64,000 nucleotides of DNA, from assembly GCA_000310025.1 (NCBI GenBank), contig FN649734.1:330781-394780 (forward strand), written 5' to 3'. The translations under genes and the position numbers were made by a program. This document shows positions 45,844-61,700 of the stretch, piece by piece. Numbering within the stretch: the first letter of the stretch is position 1; each line of letters starts with the position of its first letter. The notes beneath the pieces are model-generated. The model was not told the origin of the DNA and searched no databases. It worked only from the letters and a program-made list of their open reading frames with translations. The DNA is from Ectocarpus siliculosus. Taxonomy: Eukaryota; Sar; Phaeophyceae; Ectocarpales; Ectocarpaceae.

Positions 45844-46520
45844 CTAGGTAGGGTTAGGCGGTCCTGCTCTTAGGGCGTAGAATTTCTAAAACATAAACAC
45901 AATATATAGTCTATCGCTGTATTCAAATGACGACATTTCAACGACGCTGGGATCTTATCTGCACTGCTGTACCGCGGAACCTACTTGTCACTCCTTCAGC
46001 CCCATCAGCAAGCAGCCTGGCTTCGACGGCCGCCACAGCAGGGACGTTCGTGCCGTTTTCCCTATGGGTTCCGCAGTACACGTGCCGGAGATCACAGTAT
46101 AGCAGTAGAGGCGGACGGTCGCAATAAAATGGTCGCTAAACTAACGTTTCATGTCTACAGCCACAGTGCCGTGTGACGTCACTGTAGTGGGCATGGTGGA
46201 ACAGTAGTTAACAAGTAGTGGAAGCAGGTGGCGATGGAGGGACCCGAGAGACTGCATGAGCCAATCCCGGCTGGATCGTTGAATTAATATAGTGGAGGGG
46301 TAAGCCCTGGCGAAGCAAGCGGTATTAGTTAGGATATGGAAAGCGCATGCACGCAAGCACAGGCTGAGCACCGAGCACCGAGAACTTCCCATTTCCCACC
46401 TCTCCTTGGTTCTCCGTGTTTTTCGGAGGCGACTCGCTGGGCTGATTCCGCCGCATTTTTTGTCCCGGTGTGAGGCAGATGTGCATGCTGTGTGTAACTT
46501 GTGCGCGTTGTAGGGGCACC

Positions 46521-46766
46521 ATGATGTGGCAAAGAGCAACAGCCTTTGTGGCATCAGCGTCACTGGCGCTTTTGATGCCGGCAACGTCCTTTATGCTGCC
46601 CACCTGCCCACACACAACAAGCATCGGGCAGCGCCAAGGACAACGTGCTTCATGCGCTGGACCAAGTCGGGAATACCAATCGCGGATTGATGGGGCAACG
46701 GACACAGCCAGCGCTCTTGGCAGGGTAGGGGCGGCGAGGATTCCACCCCTTAGTGCGATAGCTCAG
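46521..46766 (+). CDS. Orphan first exon with signal peptide and transit-type presequence
   Basis: The ATG opens an 82-codon exon ending in phase at a CTCAG/GTAATG donor. The N-terminus is a hydrophobic signal peptide (ATAFVASASLALLMPATSF) followed by a Ser/Arg/Gln-rich, acid-poor stretch. Heterokont plastid proteins carry such bipartite presequences, with an A-x-F cleavage motif; here the motif would be ATSF before MLP. No following exon was recognised in the next 2 kb, and the retroelement begins at about 48.5 kb, so the rest of the gene may lie beyond the insertion or be lost. A secreted protein, or the start of the plus-strand polycystin-like copy, are alternatives. Confidence 0.45.
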
Positions 46767-48525
46767 GTAATGCGTGGGTGTGTTTGTGTGTGTGCCCGCT
46801 TTGCCTTGCGGGGGGCTAGGGTTAGGTGTATTGTAGGTCCAATTATGCACATGTTCGCGTACACCGGGCAGCCCGCACAGCTATTTTTCGTTGACGCAGG
46901 GTTGACACGGACTTGCAGCACCCGGAACACACGTAGTGAATCGGAGACGCGGCGTGTTTGACTTGCACTGCTGCATTCCTGAAATAATTCCGCCAGTTGT
47001 CAGGCATTCATCCACGACCGAGGGCTCTCTGTAGGGGTACAGTTGCATGTAGGATTCATCCGTCACTCGCCGATACAACTGGCTCTTTACGAGGTGAGGC
47101 CGACCGATTTTGTGACTGACTGGTTTCGAAAACGACCGAACCAGCAGCCGGCGATCACATATTGTACGAGATGCGTAAGGCCAGCTGGGAAGTGTTCCGG
47201 AGGAGAAATTACTGCAGTAGCCGCACAGGGCAGCTGTTAGGACTTGTCATTGCAAGCATTTCGCGCGGTCTATTCATACCTCCAGATACCTTCTCCACGC
47301 ATAGAATCAACAAAAACAAACACGAGTCTAAATTCAAGACACATAGACGACACGGCGAGTGCTTCGACAGTATATGCTACAAGTGTACGGCGTTGTTTTG
47401 CCGTTTTTTTTTTTTTGTTGCTGTCCGGGACCAATGTTCCCGAACTTCAGAACGCCTTGCAAACCACCACCAAACAATACAGTAAATTTAGGGCCACACT
47501 ACGCACCTCAATTGGCACTTTGTTGTTGGTCGGTATCTCAATATACTGAGCTTTAACCGCAGGTGCCACTTCGAGGGTGCTAGCTGCAGGTGCGAGACAT
47601 AAGGGTTGTTCATTGTTTCGGTCGCCGGACCTCCCCCGTCAGATGATACCGGGCCCCAAACATATCTCCGCTCTGTCTCGCTATCGTTTCCTTTGTTATT
47701 TTTCCCTGTAAACCACCACCCTTTCGATGTCGTTGGATTGCGGAGCCCATGGCGAAGATCCTCTTGGAAATAGAGTGCAAAGAGGGCCCAGATCCACGTT
47801 TCATGTTTGCTGATATCTGCATCCAAGAGGGGCGAACCCCTGATGTCATGGGTGCCACAGAAAGCCAACGACACCAGCTTGTGTGTCCACCGTTTGGTTC
47901 AAGTCGCACGGCCCAGCGTCAGATGCTGACGCGTCCTCCAAATCCGTCTGTTCAACCAGATCTGCCTCCAAGTCAACCTGTGTGACACTGGCAACACGCA
48001 CAGACCTGCGAAACAATGGCGGAAGACTGGTATACAACGTCTGAAAGTACTGTGCAGTCTTGTTTCAACAGCCCACGTAAATCCAGGGTGGCGCCAGGTG
48101 TAAGTGCGCCAAACCGCTTGCCCGGGGACGATGTGGGAAAAAGTCCCACATCGGAAAAAAGCCTGATTACTGGGTCAGCCCTTTTCAAACCCTGTTTTCC
48201 ATACCCAGAACGCCACACGCCCTCATCTCCCTTCGTTCTTCCAGCGAGAAGGGCTCGTCAGGACCGTAGCTACTCGGTGGGTGGTGGTGCCATATCACAG
48301 GTCGCCGCACCAGAAATTGCTTTGGGCAGCGTACCGTCGAAAGCAGCAACATTACCCAAACCAGTTCAATGACCAGGAGAACGGTGTGACTACGAGCCGT
48401 CTAACGCGTTAAACAATGCACACTCAATTTTCGGCGACCACACCACTTTCATCTCTTCCCCGGATGGCCTTCTGTTTTTTTTTCTGGGTTTCAAGACTGA
48501 ACCAAGGGATGCAATTTCAAGTCTA
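46767..48525. other. No firmly supported gene
   Basis: Open frames on both strands show no domain I recognise. A minus-strand frame at 47488-47874 has protein-like composition (HETWIWALFALYFQEDLRHG) but no splice pattern or relatives in the window. A perfect 10-bp hairpin lies at 48130-48153. Confidence 0.3.
48130..48153. repeat. Short perfect hairpin
   Basis: The arms CGATGTGGGA and TCCCACATCG flank a short A-rich loop; a poly-A run follows. Function is unknown. Confidence 0.6.
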
Positions 48526-48868
48526 TGTTATGGTATTTGGACCCTTGGACTAAGATACCATCTGGGCGGGTATATCTTTCTGGAATATCCCGACCACCTG
48601 CCCAGGTTCCCAGCATTCCGACTTTAGGCAGGTAGCAGTACAATGGTTACTAGCAGTAGCAAGAGAGTGCAAGCGTTCCACCTTGCTCAGTGTTTTGCCT
48701 GGTGTTCCCTGGTGTCTTGCCTGGGAGTGAGCGATAGCGAGCGACTGAGAGAGAAAGGAAGGATAAGGAAGGAAACAGACTGAAGAAGCGAAGCGGCTCC
48801 TACCAGCACACAGTGGTCGGACTAGCTCCACACTAAACCCGCGTCAGAGGTCGTCACATCTCGTCACA
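48526..48868 (+). mobile_element. Candidate 5' LTR of the retroelement, with primer-binding site just downstream
   Basis: A TG...CA interval can be drawn from TGTTATGG at 48526 to CACA at 48868, with a TATATCT at about 48570. Two bases later TGGCCTCGTCTTGG starts at 48871. Retrotransposon primer sites begin with TGG because they pair with the tRNA 3' CCA. The next bases (GGATTCGAAC) resemble the complement of a tRNA T-arm, though the spacing is two bases short. No 3' LTR was found for comparison, so the left end is a guess. Confidence 0.3.
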
Positions 48869-49006
48869 CTTGGCCTCGTCTTGGATTCGAACGTGAGTCG
48901 CTTCTACTTTTTAGTTTTCTTTTCGGGTGCAGTGGAAAAAAGTTTTCTGCTGTGGGATTCCTTGGGTAGACATATCTCTCTCTTTCGTAAGCTTGAGCTC
49001 GCCACC

Positions 49007-50676
49007 ATGGCAGCACTCACAGGCGGCGGCGCCGACTCATCCGCAGCCAGCCCACGCAGCACCAATAGTGCTCCACGTAGCTCTGCTTCTAGTGGCAACA
49101 GCTCCCCGGCTTCGACACATTCCGCTACCTTCACGGACGCCACTCAAGTACACTCCTTGCTGCAGCAAGCAGCCTCATCTTTAGTGTCTTTGGTCGAACA
49201 TGCAATTGCACCTTCGGTTTCACAAAGCACATCCGTGCCTCGTGATACACACCAAACACCCTTCGACACTAGTAGCACACTGGCCGCCAATGATACTCCA
49301 CTGACCGACAATGCTGCTTCAAGCGACGCCATTCTCGCCACGCAAGCACACACTCTGCAAAGTTCGGATATGCCTTTTCTTGCTGAAGGGCCTTCAATCG
49401 GCATTTCCCACAAGGCAAGTGACACGGCAGAACAAAAGGCTGCCATCGCCACAACCTCTGCTGTTGTAGAAAACGAGTCTACCGCCATACGCGCCACACC
49501 TGAACACGACACTACGCTCTTTCAGCGCACGCTTGACCCCATTGATGAGGATCACTCCAGCGAAATCCGCGCTCTGCCCGACACAGCTATCGCCATGCAA
49601 TCGGCAATTAGCACCGACAATTTTGGCACTTCTCCGCGTGCCCATCGCACATCTCCGGAGATCGCAGAACTCGGCATTATTCCATCGGTTGCCGAATCTT
49701 CTGCACATAATACACTGCCAATTTCTCGACACTTTCTGGGCCCACTACACCGCCTGCGACATTGCCTGCTGCTCCCGACAATAATGACGTTGTGCTCTCT
49801 GCAATTAATGCTGCACTCATGGCATTCGACAATTTTTCGTCAAACAAGACTGCAGCTGTCAACGGCCCAGGCCATCGTGCTGTGTCTGCTGCCTTTGGGA
49901 ATCTTTCTCTTTCTGCTCCATCACAAGGTCACCGGTCGAGCAACCGCTCATCCTCGTCACAACAATCGCATGCCTCAGGCTCATCACGCAACCCAATAGT
50001 CATGAACATTCGATCCAACTCGCACTCGGATGTTTTTGATCAACACTACAATGCGTGGCCTTTAGCTAGAGATGACCACTGGTACACGGTCTTCCAGGTT
50101 TCTGAGAGTTTCACATCCAGAAAACTGCCATCACTTTGGACGCCACTAGTATCACGACACGAACGAGAACAAGCCTTCCGCGACAATCAAGGACTTTGCC
50201 TCAACTGCCATTCAACCGCACACTCCATGCGCAACTGTGATCAGCCTTTCACCAACCGTTCTGGCATTCTCAACGAAGATCTCCGCCACCTCAACGACAA
50301 TGACGACACATTCCAAACCTGGCTTCAGCGGTTACGATGCCACAGGACGACCCGTGGCCCCAACAGACAGCAGTCCAACCGCCAAAACTCGAACCGTCGC
50401 ACCAACAACCGGCGCAACAACAATCGCGGCTACAACAGCTACAACAACCACGGCAATGGTAACAACAACAGCTACGGCAATGGAAACCACACCCACTCCA
50501 GCGGCAACAACAACGCCAATGCCTACAACGGCCAACAACAAGGCTCTCTCACCGTTTATCAACCGGCCCAATCTGCTGCCTCGGCACATTCCGTCAATAC
50601 CGTCAATTCTCAAGACGCACGCCTTCACGGCAATCAGTCGTCCAACGCCACCAACACCAGAAACGGACGCGGATGA
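49007..50676 (+). pseudogene. Retroelement Gag-like region with CCHC zinc knuckle, frameshifted
   Basis: The start is ATG 49007 in a perfect GCCACCATGG context. The first part is Ser/Thr/Ala-rich with no recognised fold. Near 49.70-49.74 kb the sensible frame moves by one base (back one), after which the protein continues as PTTPPATLPAAPDNND. A nucleocapsid zinc knuckle CLNCHSTAHSMRNC (CX2CX4HX4C) is at 50197-50238. It is followed by an Asn/Arg-rich, Gly/Asn/Ser low-complexity tail of the kind that binds RNA. The frame ends at a TGA (50674-50676), but the same frame is open again directly afterwards. Base composition is strikingly C- and A-rich, unlike neighbouring introns. Confidence 0.75.
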
Positions 50677-53436
50677 CTCCGCAACGGCGGTACGCCCTCC
50701 GTCCCCGTGCCGCCGACAGCACCACAGGGAGAACTGCACACTTCTGCCTCCGGCACACATGCACTTCGCGCAACACACGACAATTCGACTTCGGACATGT
50801 CAATAAAACAACGCATGCCGACAACCGACACTACAACCGGCCCTCGCCATCCTCGCACTGCTAGCAATGCACAGCCTAGCACTGCCGACACTAAACAGGG
50901 GGAACTGCAACCGTCTGCCACAGGCACACCTGCACTTCGCGCAGCACACGCCAATCACGCCTCTGCTCCGACAATACCCTCACCGTCTTCGACAACCGGT
51001 ATCTCCACCGGCTCTCGCAACAGCGGCACTACGAGGTCAGCTCCGCCTCGCACTACCGCCACGTATGATTACAGTTCTCTCCCGCCAGCTCAGTCAACCG
51101 CCACTCCAAGGATTCGCCCCCCTGGAGAGACGATGGCTTTGAGGCGTGGGTACACTGCACGATCGCCAGAACCTCATTCGGCATCATCATGCGACACCGG
51201 CAATGCTCCACATACCAGTAATGTCCTAGGACCTCAGCAGGTGGCTCCTGCAGCGGGCCCACCGGCAGACACTGGCAGTGCAACACTTTCGACAATTTTC
51301 GAACCGGTGCATGGACCAAGCTCTTCACAAGACGTACAGCGACCTCCAGAAAATTACGCCGCCGCTACCGCTAGTTCTACTGTATTAACCCAGAGTTCTA
51401 CCCGTACCCGCGAAGGTGCTGACCCCACACTCTCCAAAGGACGCTTTGGACAGAACCCCGCTAAAAGAATGGGAAGCTCGCGCCCCCCGTCAGGGTGGAC
51501 TAGACCAGAGCCACCTGCTTCTACTCGACTCAATCGACTACTACCAGGAACGTCTACTCCAAGCGATGACGACACTCGGAGCCAGCGGACCTCCGACTGT
51601 CCGCCACTTGATTCAGCGACTATAACAGCGCCATCAACTGAGCCACGACAATACAGGCACTTTCCTCAGAGCTCTCGGAACCACCGACAGCCTCACGACA
51701 CTGCCTTTGATGCCACACAAGAGTACGTCAATAATAACGTCATTCTTTTCTGGCAACCGCCCTCCATTTTTTCTCAATGGACACCTTCGACATTTTCGGT
51801 CGATGGAGTGGAACACTCCTGTGCCGAACAATTCTTCGCGGCATCTAAGGCACGACACTTCGGCGACAAAAGCATGCTTCACAATATCATGCTTTCTTCA
51901 GACCCAACAATGCACAAGCGCTACGGACGACAAGTGCGTGGCTTCACGCAACAGGAATGGGAAAAGGTGAGAGAATACATCGTGCTTGTGGGCACTTTCG
52001 AGAAATTCTCCCAAAACCCTTCCATGCGTCAATATCTTCTCAATACAGGCAGCAGCATTCTAGCCGAAGCCAGCCCTTTCGACAATACATGGGGCATCGG
52101 CATGAGAGCCGATCACCCCGAGGCAGCCAACCCCTCCAACTGGACAGGCAAAAATTCACTTGGTAAGGCACTTCAATCGGTTAGAGACTTGCTTCGCTCC
52201 TCTGCACCACTACCGATGCCGCCACTGGAAAACCCTACCGACTCCGCACTCGACAATAACGGCATTCACGAGATCAACACCGACACTCAGCAAGCGATCA
52301 ATCCAACTTCAGAGTCACCCCCAGAGCCAACGGGTATCAACGCTCTGTGGCCCTCTGATGCGCCTCCCGACTACGACGACGACATTCTCCACATTGCGGC
52401 CGCCAATTTCCACGTCGACAATCACCCCAAAGTACTTGCTGAACATGGACCAGGTCTCGTTGACGGTATTGTCACCGTTGACGACGCTTCACAATCCACC
52501 AAAGTGCGCATACACTCAGGTTCCGCAACTTCAGGTTACCGCTGCGGCGCTCTCCTGGACTCCGGCTCTCCAGCCACGTTCATCAACAGCAATGCTATCG
52601 GCACCATGCGAGCAACAGGATGCGCGGCACAAGACTGCATCGCCACTAACAACACTCGCTCTTGGGGAGGATTCGGTAGCGCTCAACCACTCGTCACTAA
52701 TCAGATGGTACGTCTCAGTGTTCAATTTTATCACAAGGACCAACCCACTGCTTCACTCGCCGTCTGGGCTCATGTAGTTCCAGCCAACACCATGCGACAG
52801 CCATTTCTACTAGGACGCGACAGCTTCATGCGCTACACCAACCGCACCTACACCGTGCTACCTGCGCCTTCTCCAACACAACGCGTGCTGGGAGAATATG
52901 CTTTCTCTCACCACCAAGCCTGCGGCGCCTCAGCCTACATTCCAGATCCCTCTGCAGCTCCAGGAAGATTCCACCTCAAATACGCTGGGAAATCTGGAAT
53001 CTCTCTCTCGTCAAATCATCAATTGGTCGAAGTCAACCTCGTCCGCGCCAATGGATATCCTGCTCTGGAAGGCCACTACATAGTCGATACTATTGCAGAC
53101 TTGTCCCCTTCAGACGAACTCTTCGTCTCTCACGGCCGCCAATTTCTACCTCTCGCAGGATGCGCAGAGCTTGAACCGGGCGACGTATTAGGTACAGCAG
53201 CCGCCCCTCTCATGCGTGTATCCATCGACACTATCCAACAATTTAGCGACAGGCAACAGTCAAAGCACTTCCAAGTGCCAGGGCCAACACACTCTGCCGA
53301 TGCGGCACACTGTGATGATCCCTTAATCGGATACGTATCTACCGGCAATAACGGGGAACCTGCACCGCACTCCCCTCCCCCTCACAACAATCCGTCTCCA
53401 CCGACACTCCCACCACAGAGCTTCTGGACCGCTTAG
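50677..53436 (+). CDS. Retroelement polyprotein segment: linker, NADAR domain, aspartic protease
   Basis: The frame continues from Gag after one TGA. There are about 340 residues of Pro/Ser/Thr-rich linker, then a complete NADAR domain (51721-52196), a second linker, and a retropepsin-like segment. The protease active site is LLDSGSPATFIN at about 52552 (DSG in place of the commoner DTG), and a later hydrophobic strand with QPFLLGRDSFM fits the flap-distal part of the fold. The frame ends at TAG 53434-53436, and the next polyprotein part (ELLDRLDAAQQKSFLSLW) is open in the -1 frame over the same bases. Gag-PR-RT-RH-IN is the standard Ty3/gypsy order; the NADAR insertion before PR is the oddity. 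Confidence 0.8.
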   Translation, partial: LRNGGTPSVPVPPTAPQGELHTSASGTHALRATHDNSTSDMSIKQRMPTTDTTTGPRHPRTASNAQPSTADTKQGELQPSATGTPALRAAHANHASAPTIPSPSSTTGISTGSRNSGTTRSAPPRTTATYDYSSLPPAQSTATPRIRPPGETMALRRGYTARSPEPHSASSCDTGNAPHTSNVLGPQQVAPAAGPPADTGSATLSTIFEPVHGPSSSQDVQRPPENYAAATASSTVLTQSSTRTREGADPTLSKGRFGQNPAKRMGSSRPPSGWTRPEPPASTRLNRLLPGTSTPSDDDTRSQRTSDCPPLDSATITAPSTEPRQYRHFPQSSRNHRQPHDTAFDATQEYVNNNVILFWQPPSIFSQWTPSTFSVDGVEHSCAEQFFAASKARHFGDKSMLHNIMLSSDPTMHKRYGRQVRGFTQQEWEKVREYIVLVGTFEKFSQNPSMRQYLLNTGSSILAEASPFDNTWGIGMRADHPEAANPSNWTGKNSLGKALQSVRDLLRSSAPLPMPPLENPTDSALDNNGIHEINTDTQQAINPTSESPPEPTGINALWPSDAPPDYDDDILHIAAANFHVDNHPKVLAEHGPGLVDGIVTVDDASQSTKVRIHSGSATSGYRCGALLDSGSPATFINSNAIGTMRATGCAAQDCIATNNTRSWGGFGSAQPLVTNQMVRLSVQFYHKDQPTASLAVWAHVVPANTMRQPFLLGRDSFMRYTNRTYTVLPAPSPTQRVLGEYAFSHHQACGASAYIPDPSAAPGRFHLKYAGKSGISLSSNHQLVEVNLVRANGYPALEGHYIVDTIADLSPSDELFVSHGRQFLPLAGCAELEPGDVLGTAAAPLMRVSIDTIQQFSDRQQSKHFQVPGPTHSADAAHCDDPLIGYVSTGNNGEPAPHSPPPHNNPSPPTLPPQSFWTA
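51721..52196 (+). CDS. NADAR domain (YbiA/COG3236-like) inside the polyprotein
   Basis: About 158 residues match the NADAR family from end to end. The N-terminal strand and WxPS element is ILFWQPPSIFSQWTPSTFSV. The predicted catalytic Glu lies in HSCAEQFFAASKA (Glu codon 51826-51828), aligned with the family VEHYFQAQK motif. Then come YGRQVRGFTQQEWEKVRE with its conserved GR, W and R, then LLNTGSSILAEASPFDNTWG with the family TG...L.E....D..WG signature, and finally NSLGKALQSVRDLLR (N..LG..L..VR). NADAR proteins include bacterial YbiA and plant riboflavin-pathway N-glycosidases, and some remove ADP-ribose from guanine in DNA as antitoxins. No stop or frame break interrupts the domain here. 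The substrate in this element is unknown. Confidence 0.85.
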
Positions 53437-56331
53437 ATGCCGCTCAACAGAAAAGCTTCCTATCTCTCTGGGACCGCCTACCACCGCACATGCGAGCCAT
53501 TACGTTCAATCTACACGGCGAAGGCTGGACGCCTGCCGTCATAGATGAACTCGCTGATGTCTTACACAACTTCCGGGACGTCTTCTCCACTTCACCAACG
53601 GACCTGGGCTGCTGCCCGCTGCTACCGTTCAAAATCGACATTCCGGACGGCTCGCCACCGGTGCGAACCAAGCCTTACCGCATGAACCCTCTGGTCGCCA
53701 AACAAGTGGACGCCATTTTGGATAAATACCTCGCGGCAGGTTTAATCCAACACTCCACTTCTCACGTACTGCAGCCCCATCGTCGTCATCCCCAAGAAAT
53801 CTGGTGGGCTTCGCATCACCGTCAATTACCAGAAACTCAACCGCATCAGCAGCTTTAGTCAACTACCTGTTCCTCGTGTGGATGAGATCATGAACAAACT
53901 GCACCAGGGCTCCATCTTCTCGCTCTTCGACTTCACAGGCTCCTTCCACCAAATTCCCGTGCACCCCGACACAATTCCGCTTACTGCGTTCGCCACACCG
54001 ACTCGCCTTTTCGAGTGGCTCAAAATGCCGATGGGTGCCAGCCAATCTTCAGGCTGGTGGATGAAGGTTATCAATGAGGTCATCAAAAACCTCGAAGGCG
54101 TCGACGCGTACCTTGACGATGTGGTGCTCTACGACAAAACACCGGCGGATCACATCCGCACCAGGCGCGCCTTCTTGCAACGGCTGCGTAAGCACAAGCT
54201 TAAGCTTTCACCGCCCAAGGCAACCATCGGCAAGACACACTCTGCATTCTTGGGACACACCATTACCCCCGACGGCATTAGGCCCAACGCCAACAAAGTC
54301 GCTGCACTCGCAGCTATGCCAATGCCAACCGACCTCAAGAAACTTCGCTCCCTTCTCGGTGGTCTGAGCTACTACCGCAGCTTCGTCAAAAACCTGTCTA
54401 AACGAGTACGCCCCGTCACGACGCTTCTCAAGAAAAACTCGTCCTTCACCTTCACCGCCGACATGGAAGCTATCGTCCGAGAAATCCTTAAAGAACTCTC
54501 CGAACCGCCAATTCTCGTCTTCCCCGACTGGAAGGCCATCGAAGACGGTACCAGACCTCTCCGCCTCCACTGCGACGCAAGCCTCGATGGTCTGGGCGCG
54601 ACACTAGAACAAGAACAAGCAGATGGCTCTGTTCGCCCCATCGTCTTCATCAGCAGATCGACACTTGACGCTGAGCGCAACTGGACACCACTCGACTTGG
54701 AAGCTGGCGCCATCGTTTGGGCCATCAAACGCTTGCGTGGATACTTGCGCGGCACACACTTCCAAATTTGGACCGACAATCAGGCACTGGAGAACATCTC
54801 CAAGGTGGGAGACCACAGCCCACGCGTACAGCGTTGGCTTGAGTTCCTCACAGCGTATCAATACACTCTCAAACACCGCCCGGGCTCCTCCAACAGCAAC
54901 GCTGACATGCTGTCTAGACTACCCATACCCGCCACTCCGCAGGACATCACAGGAGATAGCCGCATCACCATGCCAGATGATGTGGGTGTCTACATGATTC
55001 GCGCCACCGGCAACACTCCTTCTGGTCCTTCTCCACAGGGTATTGCTTTGGGTGGGCTAGTACCCAACAACGGCACCGACACTTTGAGTGGCTCCCCACT
55101 GACACCAGCGGATTTCCAGGATTTTCGCCGGCACGGGCTCCGAATGAGCATTGACGACCTCGACGCTCCTCCCGGAGTATTCGCAGCTCGTGCTTTTCTG
55201 TCAGTCTCCAACAACATTTCACGTCTCCACTCTCGCCACCCTCCTGCGTTGTGCGACATCAACACAGTGCATCAATCGGCTTTGCCTCGACATTTGGACC
55301 ATCATAGCAAGGACCCTACCACAGAACGTCCCCCTTCCTCAAATCTTCAACACCATCCCGGCACACTACAGTCTGCCGCTCAATCTCCGGCACAACCTGC
55401 CAGTTCGACAATGCCCCCTGCAACTGCAGCTCTCTCCAGATCAGACATCCTGGAAGCACCTGCACTTCAGCGGCCTCTCTCTCCTTCGCGGTTGCGCCCG
55501 CGTTCTTTGGATCTATCAGATTTGATATCCACCCGCACTCGACGCCGCGCAGCTGCAACATCGGGGAATCCTCTGCCTCAAGTAACTTACCGCTTCAGCC
55601 CAGACATTTCCGCCACTGCGGCACCAGCACCTGCTGCACAGCCACGCAGGCCGCACACAAACCCTTCTACGCCACCTGCGCAGACGACCGCTGAACTTGT
55701 ACCCACCGTACCAACAGCAAATAACACTGCTCCCTCAGAACCTCTCGCAGAACCTCTGCCGGAATCGGCAGACACACCATCCACAGGGACCCCCTCCACT
55801 TCAGCTTCTTCGTCACTTCCAGCGCCACTACCTTCTCCGGCTGAGATATCCTTCATGGACTCTGTAGCGCGCTTCACACACGCCGACTGGCATGAGGAAC
55901 AACAAAAGGACGTCACTTGCAACTCCGCCATTCGCTACATTCAACTTGGGCAACCTTTGGCATTGCCCACAAACTTTTACGGCGACACCCCAGAACACTT
56001 GCGCCCTCCCCTCACCAACATCAAGGAATTGGCCACCAAAGGTCGCATCATCACAGATGACGACGGCAATCCGCTCTTGGTTCGACAATTTACCAAACCG
56101 CCAAACTCCGACAACGATCGTCCTAGCGGTAGAGCTGCTCGCCTTCTCGACAATGAACCCACGCGCATCTATGTGCCCGTACACATGCGTCCTTGGGTAA
56201 TGCTTCAATGCCACTCCAACACTCTGTGCCACCTTGGCACCGCCAAAACCATCAGCCTTCTGGAACAACTCTACTGGTGGGTTGGCATGAGCTCTTGCGC
56301 CCGCTTCTGGACTCGACAATGCTACACGTAG
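53437..56331 (+). pseudogene. Retroelement Pol: reverse transcriptase, RNase H, truncated integrase
   Basis: RT starts in one frame (FSTSPTDLGCCPLLPFKIDI, then KPYRMNPLVAKQVDAILDK). Near 53765-53770 the frame shifts by +1, after which CSPIVVIPKKSGGLRITVNY continues. The palm follows: SLFDFTGSFHQIPVHP with the first catalytic Asp, then AYLDDVVLY with the YLDD box at 54109-54120. RNase H has LHCDASLDGLGATLEQE, a downstream Glu in LDLEAGAIVWA and WTDNQAL. The Ty3-type signature HRPGSSNSNADMLSR is present. After a Pro-rich spacer the integrase zinc domain begins (CHSNTLCHLGTAKT) but ends CYT-stop at 56329-56331, one residue short of the last Cys. No integrase catalytic core or chromodomain follows. 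It is a decayed Ty3/gypsy element. Confidence 0.88.
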
Positions 56332-58747
56332 CAGAGAGAGCGGTAGGCGGAGGGTAGAACGAAGCCCGTTGGCACACAGAGTACCTCGCAACACGCACTC
56401 TTCGTTTGTTATGATGATGGTTGAGCTATGAAAATACCCTAACCCTACAGACAAAATGTTCACGCGTTGCGTGGCACGCTAGCTAGATCTCTCGGCGTAG
56501 AGTTGCTGCTGAAGTGGTGGCCGGTTGGTCTTGGTCAGGGCTGAGCCTACCACAGGCAAACGCATATCGAAGTAAGTTCCCCAAAGGAAGGACGTATCCA
56601 AAAGGATCGTGGCGATCGGTGTTTGGAACCGCTTGATCTGAGTGTGAGAGGGTGATCGATATGGCTCGTGTCTTGACAAATGGTCACAGCAGGTTTCGCA
56701 AGCCGTTCGAACTTCTTCCCGATTTACAAGACCTAAATCAAGGACCTTTTGGTCCGTAAGCGTACGATCCCTCCAAACAGATATTTTATTTCGCTAAAGC
56801 AAAAATGCGCTCCTATCAGCGCGCGTGAACTGAAAATATGCTACGATGGTGCGGGCGTCACCACTCCAATATCGTCAACCTGTCAAACGCACGCACACGC
56901 GTGTCAAACCCACGAATGGGGCACGGACACACTCGCATGCGCCAGCACGTGCTGTAGGTTGCGTTCAGCAGAGGAGTTGATGTCTGTGTCTGCGTCGGGA
57001 GGGAACGACATTGAACCTTTGGAGATTGTTGTGCAGACGGTTTTGCTTGATGCGCGGACGTCGTTGTCGCGATCGAGTCAGCCCGAGACTGCCCAACTCC
57101 ACATGCGCGCGTCCGCAAGACGCTGCTTTGTCCCAAACATTCAAGCCCACCACCACCAACACTCGCCACACCTGTAACATCCGATTCTACATCATGCCTC
57201 CCACCAGCGAGAAACTTCGTAGTAATCGCGCATAGTGTGTGGTGCCGATATGGCGAGGCAGGAGGACACACCAGCAGGTTCTCGCAAGCGAGACACGGAC
57301 CGCACTACTAACCGTGCCCGCAACAGAAAAGGCTGTCAAGGAGAGGGATCGCGGCTACCATTGCAACAACAAGGACTCTGTCAACTCAAACAAACGGGTT
57401 ACATCCTATTGCAGAGCTTAATGGCAACGATGAGCATCAAGCTCTTACGGAGACACGTAGACCCGATATTCTTGATTAGCAAACAGGAATCAATCGTATC
57501 CACGACATACGCATGTTTACGGCGGATTGCGGTGTTACGTGCATTGCGCTCTTGCCCTCTTCCACGGTGCGATTCGGGCCCCTCCACCCATTGGGGGCGG
57601 CGGGGCCGTTCAGGCCCTAGTATTGAGTGACTTCGTGTTTCTCGCGGTCATGCTGCCGCAGATCTCATGACAGCGGCAAGTCTCTCGTCATGGGGGCGTG
57701 GCGCTACGAACGATTCGCTTGCACAAGGGACTGGAATCCACCCTCTCTGTCGGGTGTTAGAAGGTAGGCCGACCTCTCTCCGTGATTTTGAGCAACGGGC
57801 GTGTGAGGGTTTAGGTTGCCTTTGCCACCACGCGCAACAGGCCGAGTCCACGATACAAGACACAAATGGCGGCTCGCGATATTTAGCATCGCCGCAAAGC
57901 AGAGAGGGTTCCATCATCGTAAGATAGTATTTTGAGGTTGTATCTGCATTGAACAAACTCGCTTGTTCGTTATCATTCTAGTGGCTGCGGGCTGACCGGG
58001 GTTCGCGAAGATCCGTCTACAGTTTTACCCAGATGGCTATGGTCACGACCTTGACTTGAGGTGGACAGGTGTTGACCGCTCACAGACAGCCAGCTTTCCG
58101 GCATGGTACGGATGCCGTGGTGGCGGCAAGAACGGCACGGTTGATTGTTCGTCGACAGAGCGTTTGCACGAACATCGCACATCCCTCTCTGAAGAAGACT
58201 GGGGGGCCGGGTCCTTGACAAAGAATTTCCTGCTCACGACGGTGAGGTTTGCGTCCATGTACGAATGTATGCCTTCTAGAGCATGAGCCGATATGCGTGT
58301 TTGTATTCCGTTTCTTCTCAAAATAAAGGGAGAGAAACGTTGCCAAACAACATGGGGTTCGTTCATAGATTTTTCAGACTTTGGTACAGTGGAAAGCGTT
58401 CCGCACACACACTCTCAGTTTGTGATATCTTCCCGCTTGGATCGCCCTATGGACACGTGTTCACAGAGCTGACGCGCGTTTTTAGTCGTCCACACTGAGA
58501 GGTAGTTTCCTACCGTTGTTCGCAGCCTTCCCCCTTGGCCTTGAACCAATGAAAGGAGAGCCTCCTCGATCCCGAGTCATAAGAATAATCGTTCAGCCGC
58601 TTTTTCCTTCACACCCACTCGCAAGGATGCGCAACATGCTTACAACGGGGGGACACAGCTGGAACAGAAAGTAGTTCTCAAATGAGATTCGAGCTCCCGA
58701 CCCATCAACACTACTGGAGCTCCGGCATGTCCACCTCTTCTCTGCAG
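56332..58747. other. Region between retroelement remnant and second polycystin-like gene
   Basis: I see no protein-coding exon that I can support. There is no recognisable integrase core, polypurine tract or 3' LTR. Upstream exons of the plus-strand polycystin-like copy should lie here if it were full length, but no REJ or propeller motif is visible. A short CCCTAACCCTA occurs at about 56439. Confidence 0.4.
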
Positions 58748-61700
58748 GTGTTGGACCAAGTGATCGGGGCGTACGACACGTCTTTGGACACCATCGTCGG
58801 AAGCGACCTAATGGGCCAAGACGCCGCCAATAAGTGAGCATCGAAGCGTGCTACAGTGCACCACGGTGCTTTCTTGTGATCTCTGCCGGCTAGTCCCTGA
58901 TCCTGCTGGCGTTGTTTCAATTGATATGAACGTTTCCATGAATGCGTGTGTTGCGTGACGCCCGGTGCCGCATAAACAAGTTTGACGGCCATCGTTCAGT
59001 CCATGGGGCTCCTAATGGAGGCCGGAATGGAAGATGGCGAAGATGTGATGACAATCGAGAGTGACCACGTACAAGCTAGCTGCCTCATCACTTCAAGGAC
59101 GGGGAGCTTGAGTTTCGACGCTGGTGAGAGCTTACACTCGCACAACTTCCTTGAACAACGAATACTTCCTTGTGGAGTGTGAAGGATCCAACCGATTGGA
59201 CGATTCTCTTCGATACCGGTCAAAAACAGAAAATGCAAAAAAAAAAGTACGCGCTTGTTGTCCTGTATTTCCGTAATGAAAGGAACATCATCGGTGTCGT
59301 TCGAGAACGGCGTCATTGGTTCTCCATCGCCGCCATCCACGAGGAGACGAATGACTCCTGAAATGGACGAGGGGTCGAAGTGCAAAGCAGGCGGATGTGG
59401 TTCATCGACAAATCGCAGGCGAAGGCCATCCTCTCGTCGCCTAAGTACTGTTTCCCCGGCATCTACATCAACCGTGCTAGTCACAAACCAGCTCTTCAAT
59501 GCTGTTAGCCGGCCGTCGGCCCTCGTCAACGGGGGCGTCACACAAATCAGGGTTTCAAGTACCGATGACGGAGAGGTGTGTCAAGTCAGTCATCGAGAGA
59601 ACATGTAGTCTGTGCCTGCTTGCAACATGCTTTCAATGTCAGGTCAGAGGCAGTTCGGCCCAACCGTATCTCCGCAGAGTCAGACAAGCAACACACGTTG
59701 ATCGTGGTAGCAACGACAGCCGAACGTGCTAGCATTAGGGATCATTTCGTTCATTTTCCCTTCTAGGCCGATGTTTCTACCTTATCAGCAAAACTGCGAC
59801 TTACCATGCACGTTTAGCCTTTGCGTATCAGCCATGCTGTGTGGAGTTGCGTGGGGGTGCCGTGTCTTCTGCCACCCTACTACTTGATCTGAACATGGTT
59901 TTTCGTACTCGGTGTTAGCGGAAAAGACGATTAGCGAAATGTGTGGGTTTCTGTCGGGGGTGTTGCTTCTTTCGTGGGTGTGGTATACGGAGTGTTTGCC
60001 ACGCAACCACCAACATCATAAGGTGTCACGCGTTGTGAAGTCAGGTTGCCGGGCATTGCTAGTTGTCTTCCGTTTGCCATGCATACCATTAGAAGAGGAC
60101 CGCATGTACCACCTGGGTTTCACCACGCAACCAGTTACTTCGCTGGCCCTCATGTCTTGCCTGCCTGCTTGCCGATCATCTCCACCCTTCAGGACATCGC
60201 GTTGGCAGGCCCGGTGCAGCTGACAATGAGGGCGTCAATGACATCGAGTGCTCTACTCCCGTCGTGTTCATACTACAACGAGGAAACCGGCCTCTGGGAT
60301 TCAGAGGGTCTCGCTATTGGCGCAGTTGCTGTCCCGATCGACGCGGGCGACAGCGCACTGGATGTCCTCGTGTCCTGCGTGACGTTTCACCTGTCGGACT
60401 TCGGTGTGGCAACCACAGAAATCGAGACCGTCTTCCAACCGGTGACGTTGGTGAACTTTTGTGTTGATTTGTGACATTGTGAACGTTTGTGATCTCGATT
60501 CAAGTTTTCCACGTTGTCTTGTACCATGCCCAAGAAAACGTCGGTGCCTCCCATGATTGAGCCGGGAACGGCGTGCCGCAGCTAGCGTTGGCCCTGCAGC
60601 ATCGTCTATTCGGCACCCCAAGCGTAGTGTGCCTTGCCTGAGCTCGCACCTTTCCCAGGAGCACGTGTAGGATACAAGTACATCTGCTCATCTGTAGCGG
60701 GCAAAACAATCATAGACTATTCCCACAATGATGCATCCTTACCCCCCCGCATGGTTCTGGTCAGGGGGCAGGCCTCAGTGTCGTCAGTGGAAGGGACATG
60801 ACCGTGTGGGGACTTGTGCTGACGGTAGGCGCCTTGATCCTTTTGGGCATCGTCTGGAGCGTCTCCAGGATAGCAGATTATCGTTCGAAAACGGCCGAAA
60901 AGCTTCAGACAAGGGCCTACGACCACTACATCGAAACAGGACATGTGAGTGTTAAGTGTACCACCCTCTCAGCAGTACCACAACATACCCGAAGTTGGTG
61001 GCCAAGTTTGGCCACAGCTGTCTCTGATTGCGACTGATGTGTGCCGGGGTAGATTATCCTCTCCCCAGCCTTGCGTGTACATACGTACATACACACGGGT
61101 GACGCATTGGTCACACGTCCAGAGAACACAGAACATAACTCAGCGGGGCGGGCGAACACGTCAAGCCTGCACACACTCCGCCGTGTTTTATTGTAACCCG
61201 TTGAGGTGTAACCTCGCCCGTCACACTGTTTGGGTCCAATTTGGGCATACGTTCGTTTCCCTCGACTGCTCTGTCCGCACCAGCCCCAGCGGCTACCGAC
61301 TTTGGAAGATATCAAGGACTTGAAACAGACGCTAGAGAGGAAGCACAAGAGAAGACGGAAAAGACGGGATGAGTCATTTGCAGGATACCTTCGACGGAAG
61401 TTGTTCCAACGGTGAGACTACTTTGTTCAACGGTGTGTCATGATAGCTGTGTGTTGCGGATGACGTTAACGCCGCCTTGCGCTACTTCACGATCGGTAGA
61501 ACGTGGGGAAGGTGTGTCTCGATGACCTTTCTAGGTATGGCCTTGTTGGGGTTTCATGCGTAACGGTATGGGTGATGCTAATAGAGTCAGTTGGTCGTCG
61601 ATTTGAGCGGCATGAAGAAAGTGTACCCGTCCCTTCCTCACCCTTGTGCACGAGGGCCGAGATACTTCCGGTGACGCAAACGACACTGTTTAGCATTTCG

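Follow-up and report, generated by a model that had tools for sequence, protein, structure and literature searches.

The question raised by this locus is why the polyprotein of a Ty3/Gypsy-type retroelement should carry a NADAR domain, and what that domain may do for the element. The element in question occupies positions 48526-56327 of a 64,000-nucleotide stretch of the brown alga Ectocarpus siliculosus (contig FN649734.1, positions 330,781 to 394,780, assembly GCA_000310025.1), hereafter the window; all features described lie on its forward strand. A sequence-only reading of the window had proposed that the element captured an intact NADAR domain, and knew of no described retrotransposon with one. 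The proposal is borne out below; the novelty is not, as Genome Biol 2025;26:320 (PMC12477816) describes Gypsy elements of Ectocarpus whose Pol has a YbiA-family NADAR at its N terminus, and the fusion of NADAR with Gypsy has thus been known since 2025. The stop codon that may be read through, the evidence at the level of residues and selection, and the cases in Copia and tyrosine-recombinase elements look like additions; in the open-access literature we found in print neither readthrough in the NADAR-Gypsy lineage nor NADAR in Copia or tyrosine-recombinase elements. Our overall reading is that Pol of this Ty3/Gypsy lineage has long begun with a catalytic-looking NADAR of the YbiA type, which would de-ADP-ribosylate the element's own nucleic acid, and we regard the case for and against this combined proposal as evenly balanced.

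The identity of the domain is clear. The segment 51721-52196 matches the Pfam profile PF08719 with 160 bits (E 6.8e-47; domain bounds 51721-52194), and the whole 919-amino-acid open reading frame (ORF) matches it with 156 bits, the curated cut-off being 35.1. The coordinates and motifs given earlier hold, including the predicted catalytic Glu (E36, 51826-51828), and the domain further has a Lys (K43, 51847-51849) and a YbiA-type Glu (E116, 52066-52068). Searched with phmmer at E 0.001, the sequences of the PDB yielded solely 8bau, the NADAR of P. nicotianae (4.7e-11), and 2b3w, YbiA (1.3e-7). The AlphaFold model of the window NADAR, built from 54 sequences, has a mean predicted local distance difference test (pLDDT) score of 97.4, and a fold search of this model against the PDB (E <0.001) likewise returned solely 8bau, which is in complex with ADP-ribose (4e-11, template modelling (TM) score 0.82), and 2b3w (1e-7, TM 0.74).

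The active site is intact well beyond the window. Besides the window copy we read 28 copies from the same genome (L001-L028), namely the 8 best-scoring ones and 20 with open frames longer than 2000 amino acids. Residues E36, K43, K66, G69, R70, E116 and D121 are invariant in all 29 copies and in proteins P0121-P0124, and S118, W124, G125, N145, L147 and G148 are likewise invariant in the 29. By alignment, the first seven of these residues map around the ADP-ribose of the P. nicotianae NADAR; E36, K43 and E116 align to its E43, K50 and E125 and correspond to E88, K95 and D171 of E. coli C7, all of which are required for guanine de-ADP-ribosylation in that system (PMC11543638). The mark of the YbiA subfamily is a Glu, rather than Asp or His, at the catalytic position of the last strand, together with the active-site E and K (PMC11125620), and all 29 copies have E116, E36 and K43. 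To judge from its sequence, the domain is a catalytic-looking NADAR of the YbiA type. It could nevertheless be argued that Pol uses the fold for its structure or for binding RNA, with catalysis dispensable, since the nematode protein SNA-3 employs NADAR domains in RNA processing (PMC9303266). Even in SNA-3, mutation of conserved catalytic positions impairs function, with folding effects allowed for by the authors (PMC9303266), and in Ectocarpus the active site is invariant in 29 of 29 copies while representatives of the families other than the window's share 54-64% of their residues with the window domain. We consider a role without catalysis improbable.

The sequence-only reading had considered that the domain might be a single-copy accident, which it is not. 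A search of the same genome (189 Mb) with PF08719 gave 150 scored matches from 230 candidates, and all 150 lie above the Pfam cut-off. At 80% identity the 29 NADARs fall into six families, with 3 (the window's), 7, 1, 5, 12 and 1 members; the five non-window families supply the representatives compared above. In all 20 of the copies L009-L028 the NADAR, the protease region, the reverse transcriptase (RT)-RNase H and the integrase-side end are collinear with the window, and Gag was matched in 19, the exception (L020) being cut short. The integrase core PF00665 is annotated, in precomputed data, in P0123 and P0124. A search with the RT of one family gave 101 scored matches from 639 candidates. 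For 85 of them, the NADAR matches listed include one on the same strand no more than 6 kb upstream, at a median distance of 1.6 kb. Six of the remaining 16 were inspected over 3.1 kb upstream. Two (L035 and L037) have a NADAR that is frame-broken. Homology starts in the NADAR-protease linker in L036 and inside the protease region in L039 and L040, and is absent in L038; no Gag match was seen upstream of the RT within the 3.1 kb in any of these four. Because their homology starts downstream of NADAR or is absent, and because Gag is missing as well, these four copies look truncated rather than NADAR-less. The lineage also includes recent copies: L022 has long terminal repeats (LTRs) of ~309 bp that are 99.0% identical and flanked by a GTAT target duplication, and L009 has LTRs of ~299 bp that are 99.7% identical with a CCCT(T) duplication, both duplications being read by eye. 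No LTR pair was present in the stretch of L014 that was examined, so that LTRs with 4- to 5-bp duplications were seen in two of three copies.

A selection check supports the view that the captured NADAR has been maintained in the polyprotein. Between families, the proportion of synonymous differences (pS) in NADAR is saturated, at 0.73-0.88, and the proportion of nonsynonymous differences (pN) is 0.15-0.33 (10 pairs). The corresponding values for RT-RNase H are 0.70-0.82 and 0.09-0.29 (9 pairs), and the protease region is less constrained (pN 0.27-0.39; 3 pairs). The NADAR is under purifying selection between families and has been kept for a long time. Within families, its pN/pS is 0.18 (12 copies) and 0.25 (5 copies). 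Two observations temper this conclusion. A pN/pS of 0.74 (7 copies) and of 0.48 (2 copies, 11 changes) indicates little constraint in two young families, although slight constraint is what would be expected after insertion, and the choice of copies by long frame or high score favours intact ones. It is conceivable that the domain is a chance passenger, a host NADAR gene captured once and now decaying neutrally. The window copy is indeed dead, and brown algae do possess stand-alone NADAR proteins (P0007, P0010, P0013 and P0016) from which such a passenger might have come. However, the existence of six families, the saturated synonymous as against low nonsynonymous divergence, the intact active site and the truncated appearance of the four NADAR-less copies make this explanation very improbable indeed.

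Two further observations concern individual copies. The NADAR of L008 (G000:C10:3695821-3696270) is 96% identical to that of the window copy, whereas its protease region is just 63% identical, and nearby on the same contig are Gag-side and integrase pieces that are 94-97% like the window; this pattern suggests that L008 is a mosaic produced by exchange between families. At G000:C3:3913787-3914242 and G000:C489:435177-435536 the NADAR lies in frames of 10,887 and 6,365 amino acids, far longer than in other copies, and masked stretches would be one cause of such lengths.

How the domain is expressed is suggested by its surroundings. As had been claimed, the NADAR sits between a CCHC Gag and a DSG protease: the zinc knuckle CLNCHSTAHSMRNC lies upstream, 1524 nt 5' of the NADAR segment and in the same frame, and the DSG motif (LLDSGSPATFI, recognised by eye; 52558-52566) lies downstream in the NADAR's own ORF. 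The protease is called from this motif, as a Pfam profile scan of the window ORF gave no protease match. At the junction of Gag and NADAR-Pol is an in-frame TGA followed by C (50674-50676), with the same frame on either side, and this is a candidate readthrough stop. In representatives with intact frames, the zinc knuckle and the NADAR share one frame split by this single shared stop; extra stops or frame breaks 5' of NADAR occur in L013, L014, L016, L019 and L028, among others. We scanned 35 sequences (the window, L001-L028 and L035-L040) with family motifs containing the stop, allowing up to 10 mismatches. The junction was found in 26, and the stop is TGA followed by C in every one; there was no match in L002, L008, L020 or L035-L040, the last six being short upstream stretches. 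The TGA-C junction covers five families (those of the window, L022, L027, L014 and L009). Except in L012, each of these junctions also has GGYGG 12 nt downstream of the T of TGA (25 of 26). UGA-C is a leaky stop context. We consider that Pol is probably produced by programmed UGA readthrough, with NADAR as its first domain and made just as part of Gag-Pol.

The alternative is that the TGA is not read through and that Pol arises from an internal start or a spliced RNA. In the five family representatives, an open stretch of 291-435 codons separates the stop from the NADAR. In two of the five families an internal start would have to contend with a long linker free of Met: L009 has no in-frame Met before codon 221 and L014 none before codon 387, which leaves 220 and 386 codons, respectively, without one. 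The maintenance of one frame and of an identical TGAC across five families also speaks against this alternative. Several results nevertheless weaken the argument for readthrough. The first in-frame Met falls at codon 41 in the window, 14 in L022 and 32 in L027, so that three of the five families have one within 14-41 codons of the stop. A GGYGG-CCGYC hairpin can be drawn 3' of the stop in five families, but when compared with mononucleotide shuffles at two lengths, RNA folding after the stop was not significant in any of these families (z -1.6 to +0.4). In the 30 codons that follow the stop, three of six pairs have a low pS (0.35-0.47) and the other three an ordinary one (0.66-0.79). Four pairs have a pN lower than their pS, whereas window-L022 (pN 0.50, pS 0.47) and window-L027 (pN 0.42, pS 0.35) do not. 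Protein-level constraint right after the stop was significant in Fisher's test for L027-L014 (0.04 at 30 codons; 4e-5 at 60 codons), and for this pair solely among four comparisons of three pairs; the two window pairs, which were not significant, leave room for translation that begins further downstream. Taking both sides together, we regard an internal start or spliced RNA as fairly unlikely.

The function of the domain is harder to establish. The sequence-only reading had suggested the removal of ADP-ribosyl marks, and this is still the best guess that the sequence allows. NADARs take ADP-ribose off guanosine in DNA and RNA (PMC11125620, PMC11833690) and, among the hydrolase families tested, were alone in de-ADP-ribosylating guanosine in RNA (PMC11833690). 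Because NADARs act on guanosine ADP-ribose in both RNA and DNA, we favour a particle-borne remover of guanine-ADP-ribose. Ribosomes would pass the UGA at a low rate, giving Gag-Pol with NADAR; the domain would be carried in Gag-Pol into the virus-like particle, in enzyme amounts; and there it would hydrolyse ADP-ribose off the guanines of the element's RNA or cDNA, and so undo either damage or a restriction mark set by the host, which would otherwise block reverse transcription or integration. With guanine-ADP-ribose as the presumed substrate, we offer this role tentatively and rate it at slightly less than an even chance. A search for DarT in the same genome gave no match, and a search for PARP gave just four short, partial matches, results that do not favour a nucleic acid mark. 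If the NADAR does de-ADP-ribosylate element nucleic acid, nucleic acid ADP-ribosylation may be a eukaryotic defence against retroelements.

The main competitor is that the NADAR acts on small molecules, either NAD-derived signals or reactive riboflavin intermediates, inside the cell or the particle, and so tunes host defence or detoxifies. In bacteria and plants, NADARs act as N-glycosidases that cleave riboflavin intermediates, and those of phages have been proposed to act chiefly on soluble ADP-ribose derivatives (PMC11543638, PMC9503650). Three NADARs of other retroelement-like proteins (P0126, P0127 and P0131) exceed the curated cut-off of NCBIfam TIGR02464 (riboflavin intermediates N-glycosidase) in a scan that covered these proteins rather than the window domain. 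Synthesis only after a stop codon, however, would keep the NADAR at low amounts and confine it to the particle, as would suit a particle-bound substrate. We consider a small-molecule substrate rather unlikely, yet the most serious alternative to removal of ADP-ribose from the element's own nucleic acid.

The Gypsy lineage is not alone in carrying this domain. Other NADAR-bearing elements were found among long proteins with NADAR regions, in records from ENA or JGI. P0134 (2178 amino acids) is a Ty1/Copia polyprotein (RVT_2 7.3e-56, rve 2.9e-11) with a NADAR at residues 155-307 (3.6e-40); its N-terminal NADAR is joined by a PTM/DIR17-like Tudor domain. P0125-P0127 and P0130-P0132 are giant retroelement-like proteins with NADAR, and P0133 (1686 amino acids), for which there was no RT or recombinase match, resembles the N-terminal part of P0130-P0132. 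P0127 has an RVT_1 match (2.1e-15) and RT matches in the PDB, with a tyrosine-recombinase motif seen by eye alone. Phage_integrase is matched weakly, below the curated cut-off, in P0130 (0.011), P0131 (4.8e-4) and P0132 (5.8e-5), and a C-terminal profile of these three matches P0126 at 3e-35 and P0125 at just 0.006. The RT in P0126 and P0130-P0132 was recognised by eye alone, and P0131 gave no RT match against the PDB. Across the eight proteins P0125-P0127 and P0130-P0134, E36 and K43 are present in all, E116 in seven (not P0125) and R70 in seven (not P0132); K66 is present in two and replaced by Arg in the other six. It is a speculative idea, which we think unlikely as a whole, that ADP-ribose removal from nucleic acid is a recurrent counter-defence of retroelements (Ty3/Gypsy, Ty1/Copia, tyrosine-recombinase-type and the published Tx1 long interspersed nuclear element (LINE)), with the Gypsy NADAR expressed via UGA-C readthrough. 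If it is true, algae and other protists would restrict retroelements by an unrecognised mechanism, the ADP-ribosylation of RNA or cDNA. Both the conserved UGA-C and the repeated presence of the domain, in elements of the Copia and tyrosine-recombinase types, open the role to direct and cheap tests.

Some of these proteins have other unusual features. P0125 combines the NADAR with a C5 methyltransferase match (DNA_methylase 9.3e-7), and P0127 has a methyltransferase-like region by eye, a combination that recalls the dinoflagellate DIRS elements bearing a DNA methyltransferase (PMC5890265). P0132 (3927 amino acids) contains NADAR, deoxynucleoside kinase, Nudix and SET domains besides its weak phage-integrase match, and its sequence resembles a retroelement polyprotein equipped for nucleotide metabolism. 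The NADARs of P0126, P0127 and P0131 have matches below the cut-off to NCBIfam NF053876 (NADAR family anti-phage protein; 5.7e-9, 1.2e-5 and 5.7e-7, respectively). Profile matches in two proteins of the abalone Haliotis point to repeated NADARs, with eight stretches in P0128 (4719 amino acids) and seven in P0129 (4240 amino acids).

The source of the retroelement NADAR was sought among the best 120 of 6698 homologues. Brown algal proteins, from Ectocarpus sp. CCAP 1310/34, are the nearest that carry a name. The stand-alone NADARs P0007, P0010, P0013 and P0016, from Ectocarpus, Pylaiella and Scytosiphon, are 227-252 amino acids long with a Cys-rich N-terminal stretch; from their sequences they are likely to be host genes and possibly the source, or an offshoot, of the retroelement domain. 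Trees were built from 56 NADARs and then from 37 of these, without near-duplicates and P0125, P0129, P0130, P0133 and P0099; the bacterial entries are partly metagenome proteins. In both trees the Gypsy NADARs form two groups, set apart from the brown algal genes and from the bacterial relatives (those named being Myxococcota and Planctomycetes), and in the 56-NADAR tree the ENA proteins P0037 and P0099 fall within the Gypsy NADAR group. Approximately unbiased (AU) tests on the 37-NADAR set rejected none of the groupings tried: one Gypsy clade (p 0.33), Gypsy with all algal genes (0.27), Gypsy with brown algal genes (0.33), the retroelement NADARs of the set together (0.13) and Gypsy with Copia (0.26). 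Since nothing was rejected, transfer from bacteria, which is the published suggestion for the origin of the NADAR, capture from the host and independent capture by each class are all undemonstrated. Phages and viruses were no closer as sources than bacterial or algal genes (up to ~55% identical), the ten best of 704 phage records being 41-46% identical and the 80 listed of 192 IMG/VR loci 37-49% identical. Giant viruses, phages and nidoviruses match the NADAR by fold, and such a match is uninformative on origin.

The window copy itself is a relic. Its 5' LTR (48526-48868; 343 bp, TG...CA), with edges taken from genome matches to the window sequence, is also found alone at many genome sites at 87-99% identity in a search with the element edges. 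The Gag region (49007-50676, from an assumed ATG) contains the zinc knuckle and is frame-broken, and a Pfam scan of it gave no matches. The 919-amino-acid ORF (50677-53436; from the ORF list and Pfam) comprises linker, NADAR and protease, and a further ORF (53746-56331) encodes RT, RNase H and the start of the integrase (RVT_1 5.4e-22, RT_RNaseH 2.1e-30, Integrase_H2C2 1.8e-9). The domain order up to H2C2 fits Ty3/Gypsy (Gag, protease, RT, RNase H, integrase). The repeated sequence ends at 56327, inside the integrase, where 12 other genome matches (90-99% identity) stop as well. No 3' LTR was found, a search of 46500-60500 giving no direct repeat of at least 40 nt; the Gag and protease-RT parts are scattered over different frames, and the integrase core is absent. 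The copy is a 3'-truncated, frame-broken and dead relic, and an ordinary member of the kind already described.

Comparison with known systems places these elements among several precedents. The betaretroviral dUTPase is an accessory nucleotide-sanitising enzyme located between Gag and protease, N-terminal to the latter, and expressed by frameshifting; the NADAR resembles it in the position of an accessory enzyme riding on Gag-Pol, while the two are unrelated in fold and chemistry. Murine leukaemia virus has a 3' pseudoknot. That virus (Gag-UAG-Pol; PMC4178896) and the Candida element Tca2 (Gag-UGA-Pol; PMC2194720) keep gag and pol in the same frame and separate them by just one stop codon, as here; Tca2 has a potential 3' pseudoknot (PMC2194720), whereas no significant structure was found in the NADAR-Gypsy elements. 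The closest known counterparts are the Ectocarpus NADAR Ty3/Gypsy elements of PMC12477816, such as Gypsy-12_Ec32, which we liken to ours by their description rather than by sequence. In that lineage the integrase bears a C-terminal chromodomain, and the window copy is truncated before that point; the words readthrough, read-through, stop codon, frameshift and catalytic do not occur in the main text of PMC12477816. The NADARs in ORF1 of Tx1 LINEs of Crassostrea gigas are likewise captured by a retrotransposon, in that case a non-LTR element (PMC12477816). Nidoviruses, hepe-like and picorna-like viruses also have a NADAR inside a replication polyprotein (PMC9503650) but are RNA viruses without reverse transcription; in a viral fold library, entries of yellow head and gill-associated virus match the window NADAR model with E values of 2.5e-6 to 7.9e-6. 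A final parallel is the capture of cytosine methyltransferases by dinoflagellate DIRS and LINE elements and by charophyte Gypsy elements, for the last of which purifying selection was reported (PMC5890265, whose main text does not mention NADAR). There, as in the NADAR-bearing elements, several retroelement classes have repeatedly taken up a nucleic acid-modifying enzyme, with the difference that the methyltransferases add a mark whereas the NADAR would remove one.

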